Shown here: in pieces, positions 53,754 through 61,014 of the stretch
How positions within the stretch are numbered: position 1 is the stretch's first letter
Layout: every line of letters starts with the position of its first letter
Assembly: GCF_028737205.1 (NCBI RefSeq)
Contig: NZ_JAQZAL010000009.1
Coordinates: forward strand, 1 to 64,000
DNA length: 64,000 bases
Direction of reading: 5' to 3'
Source: Actinomycetospora lutea
GTDB lineage: Bacteria; Actinomycetota; Actinomycetes; Mycobacteriales; Pseudonocardiaceae
Position numbers and translations under genes: made by a program
Notes under the pieces: generated by a model
Told to the model about the DNA's origin: nothing
Databases searched by the model: none
The model's input: only the letters and a program-made list of their open reading frames with translations

Positions 53754-54206
53754 TCAGCGAACGGCGGCCGGGTGGCGGGACGCCCCGGGCGGGGACGGGG
53801 CGGGCGCGACGCTCGGTCGTGGCGCCAGCGTCGCCGCGTAGCGCCGCACCCGCCGGCACCGCAGCACCGCGAACAGCGCCGCCGCTGCGCCGAGCACCGC
53901 GAGGGGCGGCTCGACCGCCAGGAGCCCGGCGGCGAGCAGCGCCCCGCCGAGCGCGAGCACCTGCCACTTGCGCAGCGCGGCGACGCACCGCGCCCGCTCG
54001 CGCTCGACCTCGCGCGGGTCCACGTCGGCGGGCACCGTCGGGACCCCGGCCCGCGCCTCGCCGCGCAGCGCGAGCCACACGTTGGCCGCGCCCGCGAGCA
54101 CGAAGACCACCGCCCACACGGGCGCCCCCTGGGACGCCCGCACGCCGGCCAGGATCAGGAAGCCCAGCCCGAGCACGGCGTGACGCCACGACACCGAGGT
54201 GGTCAC
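53754..54206 (-). CDS. Small membrane protein, Nramp-like transporter partner
   Basis: A 150-residue protein with two N-terminal hydrophobic helices (HAVLGLGFLILAGVRA and WAVVFVLAGAANVWLAL), a charged linker (EVERERARCVAALRKW), and a second hydrophobic pair (LALGGALLAAGLLAV and AVLGAAAALFAVL). No family is recognised. GTG 54206 overlaps the stop of the transporter gene (GTGA), so the two proteins are made together and probably associate in the membrane. Confidence 0.7.
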   Translation of the reverse strand: MTTSVSWRHAVLGLGFLILAGVRASQGAPVWAVVFVLAGAANVWLALRGEARAGVPTVPADVDPREVERERARCVAALRKWQVLALGGALLAAGLLAVEPPLAVLGAAAALFAVLRCRRVRRYAATLAPRPSVAPAPSPPGASRHPAAVR

Positions 54207-55666
54207 GCGATCGCCCCCACCAGCTCGAGGATCGCGATCACGCCGCAGACGGTGAGGAACACCGAGCCGAGCACGACGAGCGTGCGCAGCGTCCGCCCCA
54301 TCCGGTAGGGCCCGGGCAGGTTGACCTTGTCGATGTAGACCAGCCCGGCGCCGTAGATGCCGCAGGCGAGGACGCCGCCCAGGATCGACGCGGGCGTGAC
54401 CAGGTCGGTGAAGCTCAGGTCGGACACGATCGCGATCAGGGCGATGACGCCGGTCCAGCCGTAGACGAGGGGCCGGATGCCGCGCTGCCCCCGCGCCCGC
54501 ACCCTCTCGGAGACCGCCGCGAGGCTCTCGTAGGCGGTCCACGAGTAGGCCTCCCAGATCGCGTAGATCGTCCCGAAGAGGACCATGACGATCGCGACGA
54601 TGTAGAAGTACTCGAACACCGGCGCCACCACGCCGAAGAACTGCGACTGGTAGGTCAGGACGTCGTTCTCCTCGGGCACCTGCTGCTGCGCTCCGAGGAT
54701 CGTCGCCCCGTTCATCATGAAGGCGGCGGCGATGACACCGAGCGCCAGGAACGCCGCGAGCATGTCGAAGAGGGGCGCGCGGCTCCAGGCCCGGGCGTTG
54801 GCCACGTCCTCGGAGTCGGTGGAGAGCGGGATCGGTGCGCGGTCGTCCTTCGCCGCGAGATCCTCCTCGGTCCGGGCGGCGTCCCGGTGGCCGAGCATCC
54901 CCCACTTCTTCTCGCGCAGCATGCCGGTGTAGCCGATGTAGTCGTACATCCCGCCGCCGAGACCACCCATGAACACCGCGAGCTCGACCCACACCGACGT
55001 CTCCGCGACGTCGGGGTATCGCTCGGCCACGAAGGGGGCGTAGTCGGGGATGATCGGCAGCAGCCCGCGGAGGGCGCCGAGCCAGTCCGGGTTCGACACG
55101 AACACGGCGATGAGCACCAGCAGCACCATGACGCCGGCGATCGCCACCTGGACCTTCTCCAGCACCGCGTAGCCACCGATGTAGGACAGCGCCGCGGCCA
55201 CGACCAGCACGCCGATCGCCCACAGGGTGGCGTTGCCGAGCCCCAGGGCGTCCAGGTAGTCCCCGAGGGCCGTCGCCACACCACTGGCCCACCCCGGGAA
55301 GGAGGCGAAGCAGATCACCACCAGCACGATCGGGAACCAGCCGCGCGGTCCCGGCATCACGCGCGCGAAGCGGCGCATCGGGTGCTCGCCGGTGAGGGTG
55401 ATGTAGCGGTTCGACGCGTAGACCAGCGCGCCCTTGGCGAAGCAGCCCACCACGACGGCCCAGAGGACGGCGTAGCCGAACACGGCGCCCTCGCGGGAGG
55501 CGAGGATGGACTCGCCGCTGCCGATCGTGAGCGACGCGATGATCGCGCCCGGCCCGAAGTACCGCAGGGCGGTCGTGACGCCGACCCGGCGCTGTCGCAG
55601 GGCCGCAGGCGCCTCGGGCAACCGGAGCTCGGGGCCCGTGACCCGTCCTGTCTCGGATGTGGACAT
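54203..55666 (-). CDS. Nramp-family membrane transporter
   Basis: A 487-residue multi-helix transporter. Helix 1 has the Nramp-like FGPGAIIASLTIGSGESILASREGAVFG, where the D-P-G-N metal site of true Mn/Fe carriers is replaced by I-G-S-G-E. Helix 6 lacks the M-P-H motif. Hence it may carry another substrate, as in the proposed sugar-acid or organic-acid Nramp-related group. It lies opposite a GntR regulator and beside sugar-acid genes. The start is ATG 55666 or GTG 55675; the AGGAAATTTCCT palindrome lies just upstream. Confidence 0.82.
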   Translation of the reverse strand: MSTSETGRVTGPELRLPEAPAALRQRRVGVTTALRYFGPGAIIASLTIGSGESILASREGAVFGYAVLWAVVVGCFAKGALVYASNRYITLTGEHPMRRFARVMPGPRGWFPIVLVVICFASFPGWASGVATALGDYLDALGLGNATLWAIGVLVVAAALSYIGGYAVLEKVQVAIAGVMVLLVLIAVFVSNPDWLGALRGLLPIIPDYAPFVAERYPDVAETSVWVELAVFMGGLGGGMYDYIGYTGMLREKKWGMLGHRDAARTEEDLAAKDDRAPIPLSTDSEDVANARAWSRAPLFDMLAAFLALGVIAAAFMMNGATILGAQQQVPEENDVLTYQSQFFGVVAPVFEYFYIVAIVMVLFGTIYAIWEAYSWTAYESLAAVSERVRARGQRGIRPLVYGWTGVIALIAIVSDLSFTDLVTPASILGGVLACGIYGAGLVYIDKVNLPGPYRMGRTLRTLVVLGSVFLTVCGVIAILELVGAIA

Positions 55667-55686
55667 GTCGATCACTCAGATCGTGT

Positions 55687-55698
55687 AGGAAATTTCCT
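55687..55698. promoter_or_regulatory. GntR-type operator palindrome
   Basis: AGGAAATTTCCT is a perfect 12-bp palindrome, strikingly AT-rich here, between the divergent transporter and GntR genes. TAGGGT just to its right is a -10 candidate for the GntR gene. It is the likely GntR binding site controlling both. Confidence 0.75.
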
Positions 55699-55752
55699 GT
55701 AGGGTGCGTGTGAGGCCCCTCACGCGTCAAGGGGTGCACGGGGAGGACGGTC

Positions 55753-56457
55753 GTGAGCACCGCAGCGCCGAGGGCGATCGGCCCGCTACCGCGGCGTCAG
55801 ATGTTGGCCGACGACGTCCACGAGGCGATCAAGGCGCTGATCATGGACAACGCCATCGAGCCGGGCGCCCGGGTCTCGATCGACGGCCTCGCGCGCCAGC
55901 TCGGGGTCTCGCCCACCCCGGTCCGGGAGGCGCTCGCGCGTCTCGAGTCGGCCGAGCTCGTGGTCAAGGAGCCGCTGCGGGGCTACCGGACCACGCCGTT
56001 GCTCACCCGCGAGCAGCTCGACGATCTCTACCAGTTCCGGCTGCTCATCGAGCCGTGGGCGGCGAGGCGGGCCGCCGAGCACAGCGACGCGGAGGGGCGG
56101 GCGCGCCTGGACGCCGAGATGCGCTCCTGCGCGACGCCGGCGGACGACACCTACGACTCCTACAAGGCGCTCGCCGCGCACGACACCCGATTCCACGTCC
56201 TCGTGGCCGAGCTGGCCGGCAGCGCGCAGGTCCGGCGGGCGTTCGAGCGCACCCACTGCCACCTGCACATCTTCCGGCTCCACTACGACCGCGGTCTCGG
56301 CGAGCAGACCATCGCCGAGCACCGCCGCATCACGCGCGCGGTCCTCGACGGCGACCCCGGGGCGGCGGAGGCGGCGATGCGCGAGCACCTCGAGGCCGCC
56401 TGCTACGAGCGCCTGCGCCCGGTGTCCGAGGAGGCCGGCGGCCCCACGCGCGGCTGA
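55753..56457 (+). CDS. GntR/FCD family transcriptional regulator
   Basis: A 234-residue FCD-type GntR regulator. The winged helix is DDVHEAIKALIMDNAIEPGARVSIDGLARQLGVSPTPVREALARLESAELV in outline. The FCD ligand domain follows, with DLYQFRLLIEPWAARRAAEH and metal-ligand histidines in HDTRFHVLVAELAGS and HLEAACYERL. It is divergent from the Nramp-like transporter and convergent with the aldolase gene, so it probably senses a sugar acid. The start is GTG 55753. Confidence 0.92.
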   Translation: MSTAAPRAIGPLPRRQMLADDVHEAIKALIMDNAIEPGARVSIDGLARQLGVSPTPVREALARLESAELVVKEPLRGYRTTPLLTREQLDDLYQFRLLIEPWAARRAAEHSDAEGRARLDAEMRSCATPADDTYDSYKALAAHDTRFHVLVAELAGSAQVRRAFERTHCHLHIFRLHYDRGLGEQTIAEHRRITRAVLDGDPGAAEAAMREHLEAACYERLRPVSEEAGGPTRG

Positions 56458-56465
56458 GCGGCGTC

Positions 56466-57227
56466 TCATCCCATCCGCAGCACCTCCGACGTGCCGAACC
56501 GCTCCGCGACGAGCTGCTTGACCCCGCGGGGGAAGTCGCGCTCGCAGGCGAGGTGGGTCGCGGTGAACTTGCGCATCGCGCCGCCATCGCCGGCGAACGC
56601 GGCCGCGCAGAGCTCGGGGGCGACGTTGGCCAGGGCGAGGATGCCGCCCGCGGCGCCGAGGGCTCCGGCCATGTGGATCAGCGCGGGGTTCCCGGTCCAG
56701 ACGGGTCCGGCGTAGGAGTCGACGGTGGCCAGCAGCCGGGTCGGGTCGCCCGAGGAGTCCTTGCAGCCCGCGACGGGCAGCGCGGGCAGCGTCTCCACCG
56801 GGATGCCGGGCGGTGACACCGCCGGGAAGTGGTAGGCGAGCACGGGGGTCGAGCCGGCGACCTCGGCCAGCTCCCGGTAGTAGCCGCTCGGGTCCGCGAG
56901 CCCCCGGGGCGTCCGGGCGATGACGGCGTCGACGCCGGTGTCGACGGCCCGCGCGGTCAGCCGGGCGGCCTGGTGGGTCGACGCGGCTCCGGTGCCGCCC
57001 ACGACCACGGCGTCACCGACCGCGGCGCGCACGGCGGTGAACAGCCGCAGGCGTTCGTCGTCGTCGAGCGCGTCGGCCTCGCCCGTCGTGCCGGCCACCA
57101 CGATCGCGTCGGCGCCGAGCTCGACCAGGCGCGCGGCCAGCCCGGCGGTGGCGTCGGCGGCGACCGCGCGGTGGTCGTCGAAGAGCGTCACCAGGGCGAC
57201 GCCGATGCCGGTGAAGACGGGATCCAT
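56466..57227 (-). CDS. DHDPS-family class I aldolase
   Basis: A 253-residue dihydrodipicolinate-synthase/NAL-family barrel, shorter than the usual 290. GIGVALVTLFDDHRAVA, GTTGEADALDDDERLRL (the GTTGE signature), Tyr in VLAYHFPA and the Schiff-base Lys in VAGCKDSSGD are present. These cleave or dehydrate 2-keto-3-deoxy sugar acids. In this operon it would act after the IlvD/Edd and fuconate-type dehydratases. It lies 54 bp downstream of the dehydratase, across a tandem repeat. Confidence 0.88.
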   Translation of the reverse strand: MDPVFTGIGVALVTLFDDHRAVAADATAGLAARLVELGADAIVVAGTTGEADALDDDERLRLFTAVRAAVGDAVVVGGTGAASTHQAARLTARAVDTGVDAVIARTPRGLADPSGYYRELAEVAGSTPVLAYHFPAVSPPGIPVETLPALPVAGCKDSSGDPTRLLATVDSYAGPVWTGNPALIHMAGALGAAGGILALANVAPELCAAAFAGDGGAMRKFTATHLACERDFPRGVKQLVAERFGTSEVLRMG

Positions 57228-57247
57228 GTCGATTCCTCTCCGGTGGG

Positions 57248-57288
57248 GTCAGTGGTGGGTCAGTGGTGGGTCAGTGGTGGGTCAGTGG
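57248..57288. repeat. 11-bp tandem repeat (3 full copies and a partial one)
   Basis: GTCAGTGGTGG is repeated at 57248, 57259 and 57270, with a partial fourth unit from 57281. The dehydratase stop codon lies inside the last unit. Each unit carries a stop in the leftward direction, and the 11-bp period cycles it through all frames. Confidence 0.9.
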
Positions 57289-58997
57289 GACTCGCGCGGG
57301 ACCTCGGCCCCGCTCGCGCCGACCAGGAAGTCGAGGTCCGCGCCACGGTCGGCCTGCAGCACGTGCTCGGTGTAGAGGCGGGCCCAGCCGCGGGTGTCCG
57401 GGGCGACGGGGGCCCGCCAGCGCTCCCGGCGCCGGGCCAGCTCGTCGTCGTCGACGTGAAGGACCAGCTGCCGGCCAGGCACGTCGAGCTCGATCTCGTC
57501 CCCGGTCTCCACGAGCGCGAGCGGTCCCCCGACCGCGGCCTCCGGCGCGACGTGCAGCACGACCGTGCCGTAGGCCGTGCCCGACATCCGCCCGTCGGAG
57601 ATCCGCACCATGTCCCGCACCCCGCGCGCGAGCAGCTTGCGCGGGAGCCTGACGTTGGCGACCTCGGGCATGCCCGGGTAGCCCCGTGGTCCGCAGTGGC
57701 GCAGGACCAGGACCGTCGACTCGTCGCAGTCCGGGGCATCGAGCTCGTCGGCGACCGCCCGGTACCGCTCGGGCGAGTCGAAGACCAGCGCGCGACCCCG
57801 GTGCCGCTGCAGGGACGGCGACGCCGCCGACTGCTTGATCACCGCACCGTCCGGGGCGAGATTGCCGCGCAGCACGGCCGTGCCGCTCCCGGCGGGCGCG
57901 AGGGGCTCGTCGAACGGCCGGATGACCTCGCGGTTCCAGCACGCGGCGTCCGCGATGGCGTCCCCGACGGTGCCGCCGGCCACGGTGGGCCGCCCGAGGT
58001 GGAGCAGCTCGGCGATCTCGGCCATCACCGCCGGCAGCCCGCCCGCGTAGCACAGGTCCTCCATGAGGAACCGGCCCGAGGGCTCGAGATCGACCAGCGT
58101 GGGCACGTCGCGCCCCAGCGCGTCGACGTCGTCCAGCGTGAACGGCACCCCCAGGCGGCCCGCGACCGCCGCGAGGTGGATGACGGCGTTGGTCGAGCCG
58201 CCGATCGCCGCGTTGACCCGCACCGCGTCCTCGAACGCCTCCCGTGTCATGATCGCCGAAGGCCGCACGTCGGACCGGACGAGCTCGACGATGCGCTGCC
58301 CCGCCCGCTGGGCGGTCTCGTCGCGGCGGGCGTCGACGGCGGGCCACGTCGCCGAGTACGGCAGCTGCATCCCGAGCGCCTCGGCCAGGCACGCCATCGT
58401 CGATGCGGTCCCCATCGTCATGCAGTGCCCCGGCGACCGCGCCATCGCACCCTCCGCGACGGCGCACTCGGCCTGCGTGATCGTCCCGGCCGCGAGCTCC
58501 TCCTCGAAGCGCCACACCTGCGTGCCCGAACCCAGCTGACGGCCCTGGTAGCGGCCGCTGAGCATCGGGCCGCCGGTGACCATGACGGCCGGGAGGTCGA
58601 CGCTGGCCGCGGCCATCAGCAGGCCGGGCGTCGTCTTGTCGCACCCCGAGAGCAGGACCAGCCCGTCGAGGGGGTTGGCCCGCATCAGCTCCTCGGCCTC
58701 CATCGCCAGGAGGTTGCGGTAGAGCATCGCGGTGGGCCGCAGCAGGGTCTCGCCGAGCCCGGTGCACGGGAACTCCCGCGGGAACCCGCCGGACTGCCAC
58801 ACGCCCCGCTTGACCGCCTCGGCGACGCGGTGCAGGTGGGCGTTGCAGGGCACCAGCTCCGACCACGTGGTGGCGATGCCGATCACCGGGCGGCCGTCGA
58901 AGACCTCGTCGGTGACGCCCTGGTTGCGCATCCAGGAGCGGTGGATCATCCCGGATCGGCCCTGCGCCCCGAACCACGCCGTGCTGCGTCCGCTCAT
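57282..58997 (-). CDS. IlvD/Edd family sugar-acid dehydratase (arabinonate/xylonate type)
   Basis: A 571-residue Fe-S dehydratase. Cluster cysteines are C51 (VPCNAH), C119 (SGCDKTTPG) and C192 (PGHCMTMGT). GGSTNAVIHLAA, DLEPSGRFLMEDLCYAGG and the C-terminal ISDGRMSGTAYG active-site Ser also match. Length and motifs fit the arabinonate/xylonate dehydratase branch rather than the biosynthetic IlvD. It forms 2-keto-3-deoxy acids. ATG 58997 overlaps the GntR stop (ATGA). Confidence 0.92.
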   Translation of the reverse strand: MSGRSTAWFGAQGRSGMIHRSWMRNQGVTDEVFDGRPVIGIATTWSELVPCNAHLHRVAEAVKRGVWQSGGFPREFPCTGLGETLLRPTAMLYRNLLAMEAEELMRANPLDGLVLLSGCDKTTPGLLMAAASVDLPAVMVTGGPMLSGRYQGRQLGSGTQVWRFEEELAAGTITQAECAVAEGAMARSPGHCMTMGTASTMACLAEALGMQLPYSATWPAVDARRDETAQRAGQRIVELVRSDVRPSAIMTREAFEDAVRVNAAIGGSTNAVIHLAAVAGRLGVPFTLDDVDALGRDVPTLVDLEPSGRFLMEDLCYAGGLPAVMAEIAELLHLGRPTVAGGTVGDAIADAACWNREVIRPFDEPLAPAGSGTAVLRGNLAPDGAVIKQSAASPSLQRHRGRALVFDSPERYRAVADELDAPDCDESTVLVLRHCGPRGYPGMPEVANVRLPRKLLARGVRDMVRISDGRMSGTAYGTVVLHVAPEAAVGGPLALVETGDEIELDVPGRQLVLHVDDDELARRRERWRAPVAPDTRGWARLYTEHVLQADRGADLDFLVGASGAEVPRESH

Positions 58998-59716
58998 GCT
59001 CGTCCTCCCGCGGTCGTCATGTGGGCCCGGACCCACTCCTCGACCTCCACGACGTGGGTGGTCGCCGCGGTCCACGCGGCGAGCGAGTCACGCGCGCGCA
59101 GGGCCCGCACGATCGCCACGTGCTGGTCGTGGGTCCAGGACAGGACGTCGTACTCGACGATCGCGCGCCAGATCCGCACCCGGGCCGTGCGCCCGGCGAC
59201 GGCGGCGGTCAGCGACGCGAGCGTCGGGTTGCCGCCCGCGACGGCGATGGCGGCGTGGAAGTCGAGATCCTGGGCGACGAGGCGCTCGGGGTCGCTCAGC
59301 GCCCGCATGTGCTCCAGCCGGTCCTCGAGGTCCCGGAGGGCCGTCTCGTCGATGCGGGTCGCGGCCAGGGCGGTGACACCGGGCTCCAGCACGCGGCGGC
59401 ACTCGAACAGCTCGGCGACGCCGTGCTCGCCGACGAGGTCGAGGAACGTCCCGCCGGCGCGCACCAGTCGATCGGGACGCAGATCGCTGACGAACGTGCC
59501 GTCGCCGCGACGCACCTCGAGCACGCCCGCCCCCGCGAGCGTGCGCACCGCCTCGCGCAGCGACAGGCGCGAGACGTCGAGCTCGGCCGCCAGGTCCGCC
59601 TCCGGCGGCAGGCGCTCCCCCGCCGAGAACTCGCCGTTCTCCACGCGGGCGACGAGCGCCCCGATCACCCGGTCGACGACGCTCCCGGTCCTGGTGCTCC
59701 CCCCGGTCCGCGTCAC
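58994..59716 (-). CDS. GntR/FadR-type transcriptional regulator
   Basis: A 240-residue FadR-type GntR regulator. The winged helix is RLPPEADLAAELDVSRLSLREAVRTLAGAGVLEVRRGDGTFVS. The FCD domain contains DLDFHAAIAVAGGNPTLASL and DQHVAIVRALRARDSLAA with likely metal-ligand histidines. GTG 59716 overlaps the fuconate dehydratase stop (GTGA), and its own stop overlaps the IlvD/Edd start, so it is embedded in the operon and autoregulated. The ACATC-A-GATGT palindrome at 61091-61105 is its likely operator. Confidence 0.92.
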   Translation of the reverse strand: MTRTGGSTRTGSVVDRVIGALVARVENGEFSAGERLPPEADLAAELDVSRLSLREAVRTLAGAGVLEVRRGDGTFVSDLRPDRLVRAGGTFLDLVGEHGVAELFECRRVLEPGVTALAATRIDETALRDLEDRLEHMRALSDPERLVAQDLDFHAAIAVAGGNPTLASLTAAVAGRTARVRIWRAIVEYDVLSWTHDQHVAIVRALRARDSLAAWTAATTHVVEVEEWVRAHMTTAGGRA

Positions 59717-61014
59717 GACCCGGCCCTCCAGGCCGAACCGTGGGGGAAGGCGTACGCGGCCCGGGACGACGGGAGGATCTCGGCGCTGTAGCCGGGACGG
59801 CTCGGCGGCAGGTAGGACGCGCCCCGCATCCGCACGGGGTCGACGAAGTGCTCGTGGAGGTGGTCGACGTACTCGATCATCCGGTCCTCGCGGGAGCCGC
59901 TGATCGCGACGTAGTCGACCATCGAGAGGTGCTGGACGAGCTCGCAGAGACCGACCCCGCCGGCGTGCGGGCAGACGGGCACGTCGTGCGCGGCGGCGAG
60001 GAGCAGGACGGCGACGGCCTCGTCGACGCCGCCAGGCCGCGCCGCGTCGAGCTGGCAGACACCCATGGCGCCGGCGGCCAGGAACTGCTTGAACATCACC
60101 GCGTTGTGCGCGTGCTCGCCGGTCGCGACGCGGGTGGGGGCGATGGCGCGCGCGATCGTCGCGTGCGCGAGGACGTCGTCGGGGCTCGTCGGCTCCTCGA
60201 ACCACCAGATGTCGAAGGGCGCGAGCGCCTCGGCCCAGCGCACGGCGTCGCCGGCCCCCAGGGTCTGGTTGGCGTCGACCATGAGGCGGCGGGCCGGCCC
60301 GATCACCTCGCGCGCGAGCGCGCACCGGCGCACGTCCTCGGCGAGATCCCTCCCGACCTTCAGCTTGACCGCGTCCCAGCCGGCGTCCACGACCTCCCGG
60401 CACAGGCGCGCCAGCTTGTCGTCGTCGTAGCCCAGCCACCCGGCGCTGGTCGTGTACGCCGGGTAGCCCTCCGCACGCAGCGCGACCTCCCGCTCCCCGC
60501 GTCCGGGGACCTGCTTCTCGAGCATCTCGACGGCGGCCTCGGGGGTCAGCACGTCGCGCAGGTAGCGCCAGTCGACGAGGTCGACCAGCTGCCGCGGCGA
60601 CATGTCCGCGAGGACCTTCCACACCGGCTGGCCCGCCACCTTGCCGATCAGGTCCCAGGCGGCGTTGACGACCGCGGCGAGCCCGAGCTGGATGGTGCCC
60701 TTGGCCGGTCCGAGCCAGCGCAGCTGGCTGTCCGCCTGGAGGTGCCGCGAGAAGCCACCCGGGTCGGCGGCGAGCTCGTCGACCGGCCAGCCCCGCGCCC
60801 GGCGGCCGATCGCCTCCGCGGCCGCGAGCGCGAGCTCGTTGCCGCGCCCGATCGTGAACGTGAACCCGTGCCCCTCGAGCCCGACGTCGGTGTGCAGCAC
60901 GACGTAGGCCGCCGAGTAGTCCGGCGCCTCGTTCATGGCGTCCGACCCGTCGAGGGCACGCGACGTCGGGAAGCGAAGGTCCACGGTCTCCACGTCGACG
61001 ATGACCCCGGGCAT
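59713..61014 (-). CDS. L-fuconate dehydratase-like enolase-superfamily enzyme
   Basis: A 433-residue enolase-superfamily dehydratase: FPTSRALDGSDAMNEAPDYSAAYVVL is the fuconate-dehydratase signature. VKLKVGRD holds the KxK base, VDANQTLG, WFEEPTSPDD and GEHAHNAVMFKQF give the metal ligands and catalytic His. It removes water from L-fuconate or a related 6-deoxy acid such as L-rhamnonate. It is the first gene of a four-gene operon. The ATG at 61014 has AGAGGACACC upstream. Confidence 0.93.
   Translation of the reverse strand: MPGVIVDVETVDLRFPTSRALDGSDAMNEAPDYSAAYVVLHTDVGLEGHGFTFTIGRGNELALAAAEAIGRRARGWPVDELAADPGGFSRHLQADSQLRWLGPAKGTIQLGLAAVVNAAWDLIGKVAGQPVWKVLADMSPRQLVDLVDWRYLRDVLTPEAAVEMLEKQVPGRGEREVALRAEGYPAYTTSAGWLGYDDDKLARLCREVVDAGWDAVKLKVGRDLAEDVRRCALAREVIGPARRLMVDANQTLGAGDAVRWAEALAPFDIWWFEEPTSPDDVLAHATIARAIAPTRVATGEHAHNAVMFKQFLAAGAMGVCQLDAARPGGVDEAVAVLLLAAAHDVPVCPHAGGVGLCELVQHLSMVDYVAISGSREDRMIEYVDHLHEHFVDPVRMRGASYLPPSRPGYSAEILPSSRAAYAFPHGSAWRAGS

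Follow-up and report, generated by a model that had tools for sequence, protein, structure and literature searches.

A 64,000-nucleotide stretch of the 6.5-Mb genome of Actinomycetospora lutea, here called the window, encodes a transporter related to the Nramp family, and this protein is likely an importer of aldonates that works with a small membrane partner under the control of a GntR regulator. The cargo is probably L-fuconate or a close relative of it, and we infer the substrate, the direction of transport and its coupling from the genomic context. Judged by sequence, the genes around the transporter form an L-fuconate-type cluster that reads, in the order of minus-strand transcription, L-fuconate dehydratase (FucD), GntR regulator 2, an IlvD dehydratase, an aldolase of the DHDPS type, the divergent GntR regulator 1, the transporter and the partner; the nearest named relatives at this locus are found in Actinomycetospora species (90–92% identity). 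A sequence-only reading of the window had noted sugar-acid enzymes beside the transporter, and these are indeed found at 56466–61014. The same reading had proposed a sugar-acid carrier built on an Nramp fold, a proposal that is supported by the operon structure, by the co-occurrence of the transporter with FucD, and by the presence of a carrier of the DgoT/sialin type in the cluster of two species.

We hypothesize that the transporter imports an aldonate for the adjacent pathway of FucD and IlvD dehydratases and aldolase. The Nramp (LeuT-type) fold would be kept, with a GSGE turn in transmembrane helix 1 (TM1) and a GGGxYDY motif in TM6 taking the place of the metal and proton sites. The 150-residue four-helix protein would be a membrane partner dedicated to the transporter and might serve its stability or assembly, by analogy with DctQ and TctB, which are small subunits in other organic-acid carriers. 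The divergent GntR regulator would repress the pair from a palindrome at the promoter, and repression would end once the cell contains the acid or an intermediate of the pathway.

A fundamental question is what kind of Nramp protein this is. The Pfam Nramp family (PF01566) matches the transporter with 37.2 bits against a cut-off of 29.8, over residues 58–207 only, and NCBIfam NF037982 matches it with 116.8 bits against a cut-off of 50 (residues are numbered from Ser2, and one is to be added for the ATG start; an alternative GTG start lies at 55675). The AlphaFold2 model of the transporter (predicted local distance difference test, pLDDT, 89.4; predicted template-modelling score, pTM, 0.90) has an Nramp/LeuT-type fold, as the sequence-only reading had supposed. 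The best Protein Data Bank (PDB) match of this predicted model by Foldseek is DraNramp (6d91; template-modelling score 0.80 by target length, E = 3.0e-10), and Nramp-family structures fill the first 25 rows, with NRMT, a YcsG model and NRAT included. All 12 MntH rows of a 73-row alignment carry DPGN in the columns of that motif; none of the 61 other rows does, and the forms found in those are GSGE (33), GAGD (8), ASGE (7) and rarer others. The window transporter reads GSGE at these columns, GGGMYDYIGY in the MPH region, and SGVATAL at the TDxAEV columns of TM3 that hold acidic proton-pathway residues in MntH, such that the canonical residues of the metal site and of the TM3 proton pathway have all been lost. 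The earlier claim that the metal signatures are replaced is thus correct, yet the loss of metal motifs is a known mark of Nramp-related proteins in PF01566 and is not peculiar to this gene.

The positions that are fixed in the clade of the window transporter and differ from MntH include E51 (N in MntH), R57, E93, E227 and D241, and at a guess R57 could be a contact for the carboxylate. The clade (23 rows) forms one side of a branch with a Shimodaira–Hasegawa-like approximate likelihood-ratio (SH-aLRT) support of 100, as do the 12 MntH rows, in a tree built by a quick method without bootstraps and with some long branches. The transporter therefore shares with Slc11/MntH the fold and a PF01566 match above the cut-off, and differs from it by the loss of the DPGN, MPH and TM3 TDxAEV motifs and by its side of the tree, which places it among the Nramp-related proteins. 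PF01566 finds two places in the A. lutea genome, this locus and one at C18:334936, and no canonical MntH was found with it there. The second place (C18:334936-336024; also L001, L030 and L206) is of the GAGD type, so neither copy in the genome is a DPGN Nramp.

The link between the transporter and sugar-acid metabolism is clearest within the genus. Each of the seven Actinomycetospora loci that carry the transporter (the window, L068–L072 and L074) also has FucD, GntR regulator 2, IlvD, the aldolase and the partner. The GntR regulator 1 gene is absent from L069, L071 and L072, and at these loci the transporter starts 5, 9 and 6 bp after the aldolase stop, respectively. Across 18 genomes of the genus, the transporter occurs in 7, FucD in 10 and the aldolase in 11; the transporter is present in 7 of the 10 genomes with FucD and in none of the 8 without it (one-sided Fisher p = 0.004; p = 0.019 when limited to the 15 more complete genomes), and by coordinates six of the seven transporter genomes are the same genomes as the named congener loci. 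Three genomes (L231, L232 and L233) have FucD without the Nramp-like gene. At L231 and L232, a 435-residue gene of the major facilitator superfamily (MFS) stands between GntR regulator 2 and the next enzyme gene, and the two copies are 91% identical. Among solved structures, this MFS protein lies closest to sialin (1.6e-32) and then to DgoT, the D-galactonate transporter of E. coli (2.4e-30); vesicular glutamate transporters follow. These MFS anion symporters have a fold unrelated to that of Nramp, and the Nramp-like protein is read as a sugar-acid importer because two congeners have a relative of theirs in its place in the cluster. Moreover, IlvD is missing from the 18 kb read at L232 while FucD and the aldolase are kept, so that L-fuconate or a near relative, as the substrate of FucD, is to be preferred as a guess for what is carried. 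Upstream of the cluster, a fucose permease of the FucP type is present in L231, L068, L069, L074 and L071 (where it is cut by the locus end) and was not found in the 64-kb window.

Does the link hold beyond the genus? Two short peptide patterns scanned over genome contigs gave 29 further loci of the clade, which is rare: at E = 1e-40 it was found in 4 of 398 Bacillota and 4 of 391 Halobacteria genomes. Sugar-acid seed genes lie within 6 kb at 12 of the 30 clade loci (29 plus the window) and at 0 of 24 MntH loci, counts that were not blind for the clade since the seed list was drawn up after the first neighbourhoods had been seen. When counted by lineage, the comparison is 4 of 22 for the clade versus 0 of 24 for MntH (p = 0.045). 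Neighbours were counted at 79 of 80 loci, and L154, with no transporter gene called, was left out. In T. wiegelii (L075), UxaA and IlvD genes lie beside the transporter, and in Haladaptatus a UxaA (altronate-dehydratase-type) and a mandelate racemase gene lie near it. Genes of the altronate-dehydratase or FucD type are neighbours of relatives in Thermoanaerobacter and some haloarchaea, and further relatives have no such neighbours. Five genomes, three from Bacillota and two from haloarchaea, were found later than the seed list, and all three of these Bacillota loci place the transporter among sugar and sugar-acid genes. At L226 a single strand carries genes for an FGGY kinase, DHDPS, a SerA-type and a LarA-type protein, a second FGGY kinase, the small and large UxaA subunits, the transporter, the partner and IlvD. 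The neighbours at L227 are an acid-sugar kinase, PdxA and a LarA-type gene, and those at L228 are a SerA-type gene, an FGGY kinase and a 6PGD-type gene. A fourth haloarchaeal match, G1430, shares its coordinates with G753 and was left out of the fetched loci. Many other clade members come from metagenome assemblies with short flanks and other neighbours.

The gene that follows the transporter encodes the proposed partner, a protein with four hydrophobic stretches whose start lies within the transporter stop codon. Its predicted model shows four helices (pLDDT 79.6, pTM 0.52), a Foldseek search of the PDB gave no match better than E = 0.08, and no cut-off was reached in Pfam or NCBIfam. An identity as PspM (Rv2743c) was considered and rejected, with 17.9 bits against a cut-off of 27.7 and 19.8 against 80. 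By sequence the partner is a member of an unnamed four-helix family kept in Actinomycetota, Bacillota and haloarchaea, which agrees with the small partner of the sequence-only reading. When lineage profiles were searched against 7987 open reading frames (ORFs), the best non-self match was a small ORF adjoining the transporter of another lineage. Searches that left out one lineage at a time recovered Thermoanaerobacter (E = 1.9e-11), Halocatena (2e-4) and UBA4845 (5.5e-4), and did not find the Actinomycetota group significantly (best E = 0.84, rank 2). Profile–profile links among the lineages are weak (hhalign probabilities of 0.5–23%). In all five later genomes, the sole called gene with E < 1 adjoins the transporter (E = 1e-8 to 8e-21), the L226 partner being one that closely resembles a training sequence. 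The haloarchaeal gene pairs are convergent and do not form one operon, and in 17 mostly metagenomic clade loci, some of which end right after the transporter, no partner match was better than E = 0.9. The link between partner and transporter is strong by gene position and homology, and the two proteins may form a physical complex.

Control by GntR regulator 1, as well as the palindrome, had also been put forward from the sequence, and comparison among congeners supports this since the palindrome accompanies the GntR gene. The palindrome AGGAAATTTCCT is identical in 4 of 4 Actinomycetospora loci with GntR regulator 1 and occurs in 0 of 3 without it (one-sided p = 0.029). Perfect 12-bp palindromes are frequent, with 58 in the 64 kb, so the weight of AGGAAATTTCCT comes from its place and conservation and not from its existence. 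A promoter-like arrangement of TTGACG, 18 nt and CACCCT is followed by AGGAAATTTCCT, such that the transcription start site would fall in the palindrome, and GntR regulator 1 would be expected to repress the transporter–partner pair. In S. daqingensis (L073:9163-11895) the GntR gene (83%), transporter and partner stand between amino-acid permease genes, with a different palindrome, TATCCTATAGGATA, seen there by eye.

Comparison with characterized relatives provides a precedent for a non-metal role. Cellier has described an outgroup in PF01566 without Mn2+ and H+ features (PMC9606685 and PMC10606218), and a January 2026 preprint states that Nramp-related groups other than the NRMT-like one and the one containing MntG are entirely uncharacterized (PMC12873925). 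In one study, C. glutamicum required the NRAMP-family protein PxpT to grow on 5-oxoproline, and a divergent GntR regulator controls it; the authors leave room for metal transport (PMC13274462). This requirement sets a precedent for a non-metal role of an Nramp-related protein. Its B. subtilis counterpart YcsG has been reported as an Mn2+ importer (PMC10448178), so the substrate of YcsG/PxpT, 5-oxoproline or Mn2+, is disputed between the two. Like the window transporter, PxpT/YcsG (MntG) is Nramp-related and has genes for catabolic enzymes and a divergently oriented GntR gene as neighbours, in C. glutamicum and at L212 and L215; it differs by GPGF in place of GSGE, by its distinct clade and by its pxpABC neighbours. 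For these reasons an identity of the window transporter as PxpT was rejected: no pxp genes are nearby, the PxpA genes of the same genome are on contigs C13 and C21, and five stretches around PxpA genes contain no Nramp-like gene. NRMT (7qia), also Nramp-related, was compared by profile match: of the PDB entries it is the one that the clade profile fits best (46.9 bits over ~207 positions), and its aligned part contains neither GSGE nor the TM6 motif of the window clade. A GSGEL clade (S. albus plasmid L066, L195 and L199) resembles the window in its GSGE turn and its sugar-acid operons, and differs as a separate clade with a different TM6 and no partner-family match noticed at these three loci. 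No sugar-acid role or small subunit of an Nramp-related protein was found in the open-licence literature, judged mostly from listings.

Several observations weigh against an aldonate importer. No sugar-acid seed lies within 6 kb at 18 of the 30 clade loci, several of which have short flanks. The haloarchaeal loci L229 and L230 have transporter and partner without sugar-acid enzymes, with gas-vesicle and other genes nearby, and in Haladaptatus another MFS gene sits between UxaA and the transporter. The S. daqingensis locus has no sugar-acid enzymes within 6 kb, the closest indication being a dgoD-like match about 9 kb away. Within the genus, the 17 kb read at L233 contain no gene for a multi-membrane protein, and L071 carries the Nramp-like and the MFS transporter in one cluster, which looks like an intermediate state. 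Over the 10 FucD genomes, 6 have only the Nramp-like gene, 1 has both, 2 have only the MFS gene and 1 has neither, and exclusion of one transporter by the other is not significant (p = 0.18). Lastly, the FucD, IlvD and UxaA enzymes are metal-dependent, which leaves room for a role in metal supply.

That role would be the import of a divalent metal (Mn2+, Mg2+ or Fe2+) for the dehydratases of the cluster, and we regard it as unlikely. It would agree with the Nramp fold, with the Mg2+ carrier NRMT as the best PDB profile match and, as a further point against aldonate import, with the reported rise of cell Mn2+ through the related YcsG (PMC10448178). However, the canonical metal-site and TM3 proton residues are all gone, the two congeners without the transporter have a sugar-acid-type MFS carrier and not a metal carrier in the cluster, and a need for metal would not account for the absence of the transporter from all 8 FucD-free genomes. 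Marginally less probable again is that another acid of the same pathway is moved, for example by export of lactate or pyruvate or by uptake of a different hydroxy acid. The neighbours do vary among relatives (tetronate-type, altronate-type, LarA-like or none), and other Nramp-related clades adjoin CoA-transferase III (9) and CoA-ligase-like (8) genes among 139 neighbours, but relatives of the replacing MFS protein handle galactonate, sialic acid and glutamate, and the adjacent GntR gene suggests induction for uptake. A mobile module of GntR, transporter and partner with no functional tie to the cluster is very improbable: S. daqingensis has the three genes without sugar-acid enzymes and three congeners do not have the GntR gene, whereas the same-strand spacing of 5–9 bp from the aldolase in three species, the strict co-occurrence with FucD, and the separate sugar-acid contexts in Bacillota and haloarchaea all speak against a passenger.

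Import of an aldonate thus remains the favoured function, and its consequences could reach beyond this genus. Whether there is a wider class of two-component aldonate carriers on an Nramp fold, in which a GSGE/GGGxYDY transporter is joined to an obligate four-helix partner in Bacteria and haloarchaea, is a more tentative matter, and we place its chances slightly below even. Nramp is a textbook family of metal transport and RefSeq labels such relatives as divalent metal transporters; if the proposal is true, a part of these annotated proteins would carry organic acids and not metals, and other genes labelled as metal transporters may be misnamed. The partner also represents an unnamed family of small membrane proteins tied to the transporter across domains of life. 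The locus offers a clean test case, with a candidate substrate, a regulator and its candidate operator, a partner, and congeners that have an MFS carrier instead.

Features of the transporter locus in the A. lutea window (positions in the window)
Feature	Coordinates	Strand	Basis
Nramp-related transporter, 487 aa from ATG	54203..55666	-	PF01566 and NF037982 over cut-off; AlphaFold2; Foldseek
TM1 GPGAIIASLTIGSGES, GSGE in DPGN columns	55508..55555	-	Alignment
TM6 GGLGGGMYDYIGYTG, replacing MPH region	54923..54967	-	Alignment; G236-G238, D241, Y242, Y245 invariant in 28 rows
Small partner, 150 aa, four predicted membrane helices	53754..54206	-	4-nt overlap with transporter stop
Palindrome AGGAAATTTCCT, proposed operator of divergent GntR	55687..55698	.	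Conservation among Actinomycetospora loci
Promoter-like TTGACG - 18 nt - CACCCT, directly upstream of palindrome	55701..55730	-	Inference from consensus; second hexamer by eye
GntR/FCD regulator 1, divergent from transporter	55753..56457	+	PF07729 85.1 bits, PF00392 50 bits
DHDPS-family aldolase-like enzyme	56466..57227	-	PF00701 95.4 bits
IlvD/EDD dehydratase, near L-arabinonate dehydratases	57282..58997	-	NF004784 862 bits, cut-off 539
GntR/FCD regulator 2	58994..59716	-	Family scan covered 58994-59698
L-fuconate dehydratase-like enzyme (FucD)	59713..61014	-	phmmer 527.9 bits, E 2.1e-157 to 2hne/1yey

The enzymes of the cluster are assigned with differing precision. FucD appears to be an L-fuconate dehydratase from its close full-length match and from the residues KxK, D, E, E and H that are common in the alignment and that we take to be the known active site. 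The IlvD protein matches the structures 8ej0 (786 bits) and 9evv, an L-arabinonate dehydratase (712 bits), and the DHDPS-type enzyme reaches none of the NCBIfam equivalog cut-offs. The IlvD-type gene of T. wiegelii is broken into two ORFs (L075:6485-8202), and the relative L226 has a single gene of 565 residues. Another member of the phylum has a fragment at a contig end (L033, G370:C59:5-460) with 51% identity to the C-terminal third of the transporter.

A sugar-acid cargo for every Nramp-related clade was considered as a general rule and is unsupported: seeds lie within 6 kb at 2 of 19 loci of the GAGD type and at 6 of the 36 other Nramp-related ones, and one clade adjoins CoA-ligase and CoA-transferase genes. 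In the other Nramp-related set (L127–L145 and L187–L205), the CoA-transferase III and succinyl-CoA-ligase-like neighbours suggest further organic-acid substrates. Among the GSGEL operons, that of S. albus contains a four-carbon acid-sugar kinase and PdxA, L199 contains DeoR and a 2-hydroxyacid dehydrogenase, and L195 has IlvD with a KDPG aldolase and an aldehyde dehydrogenase.

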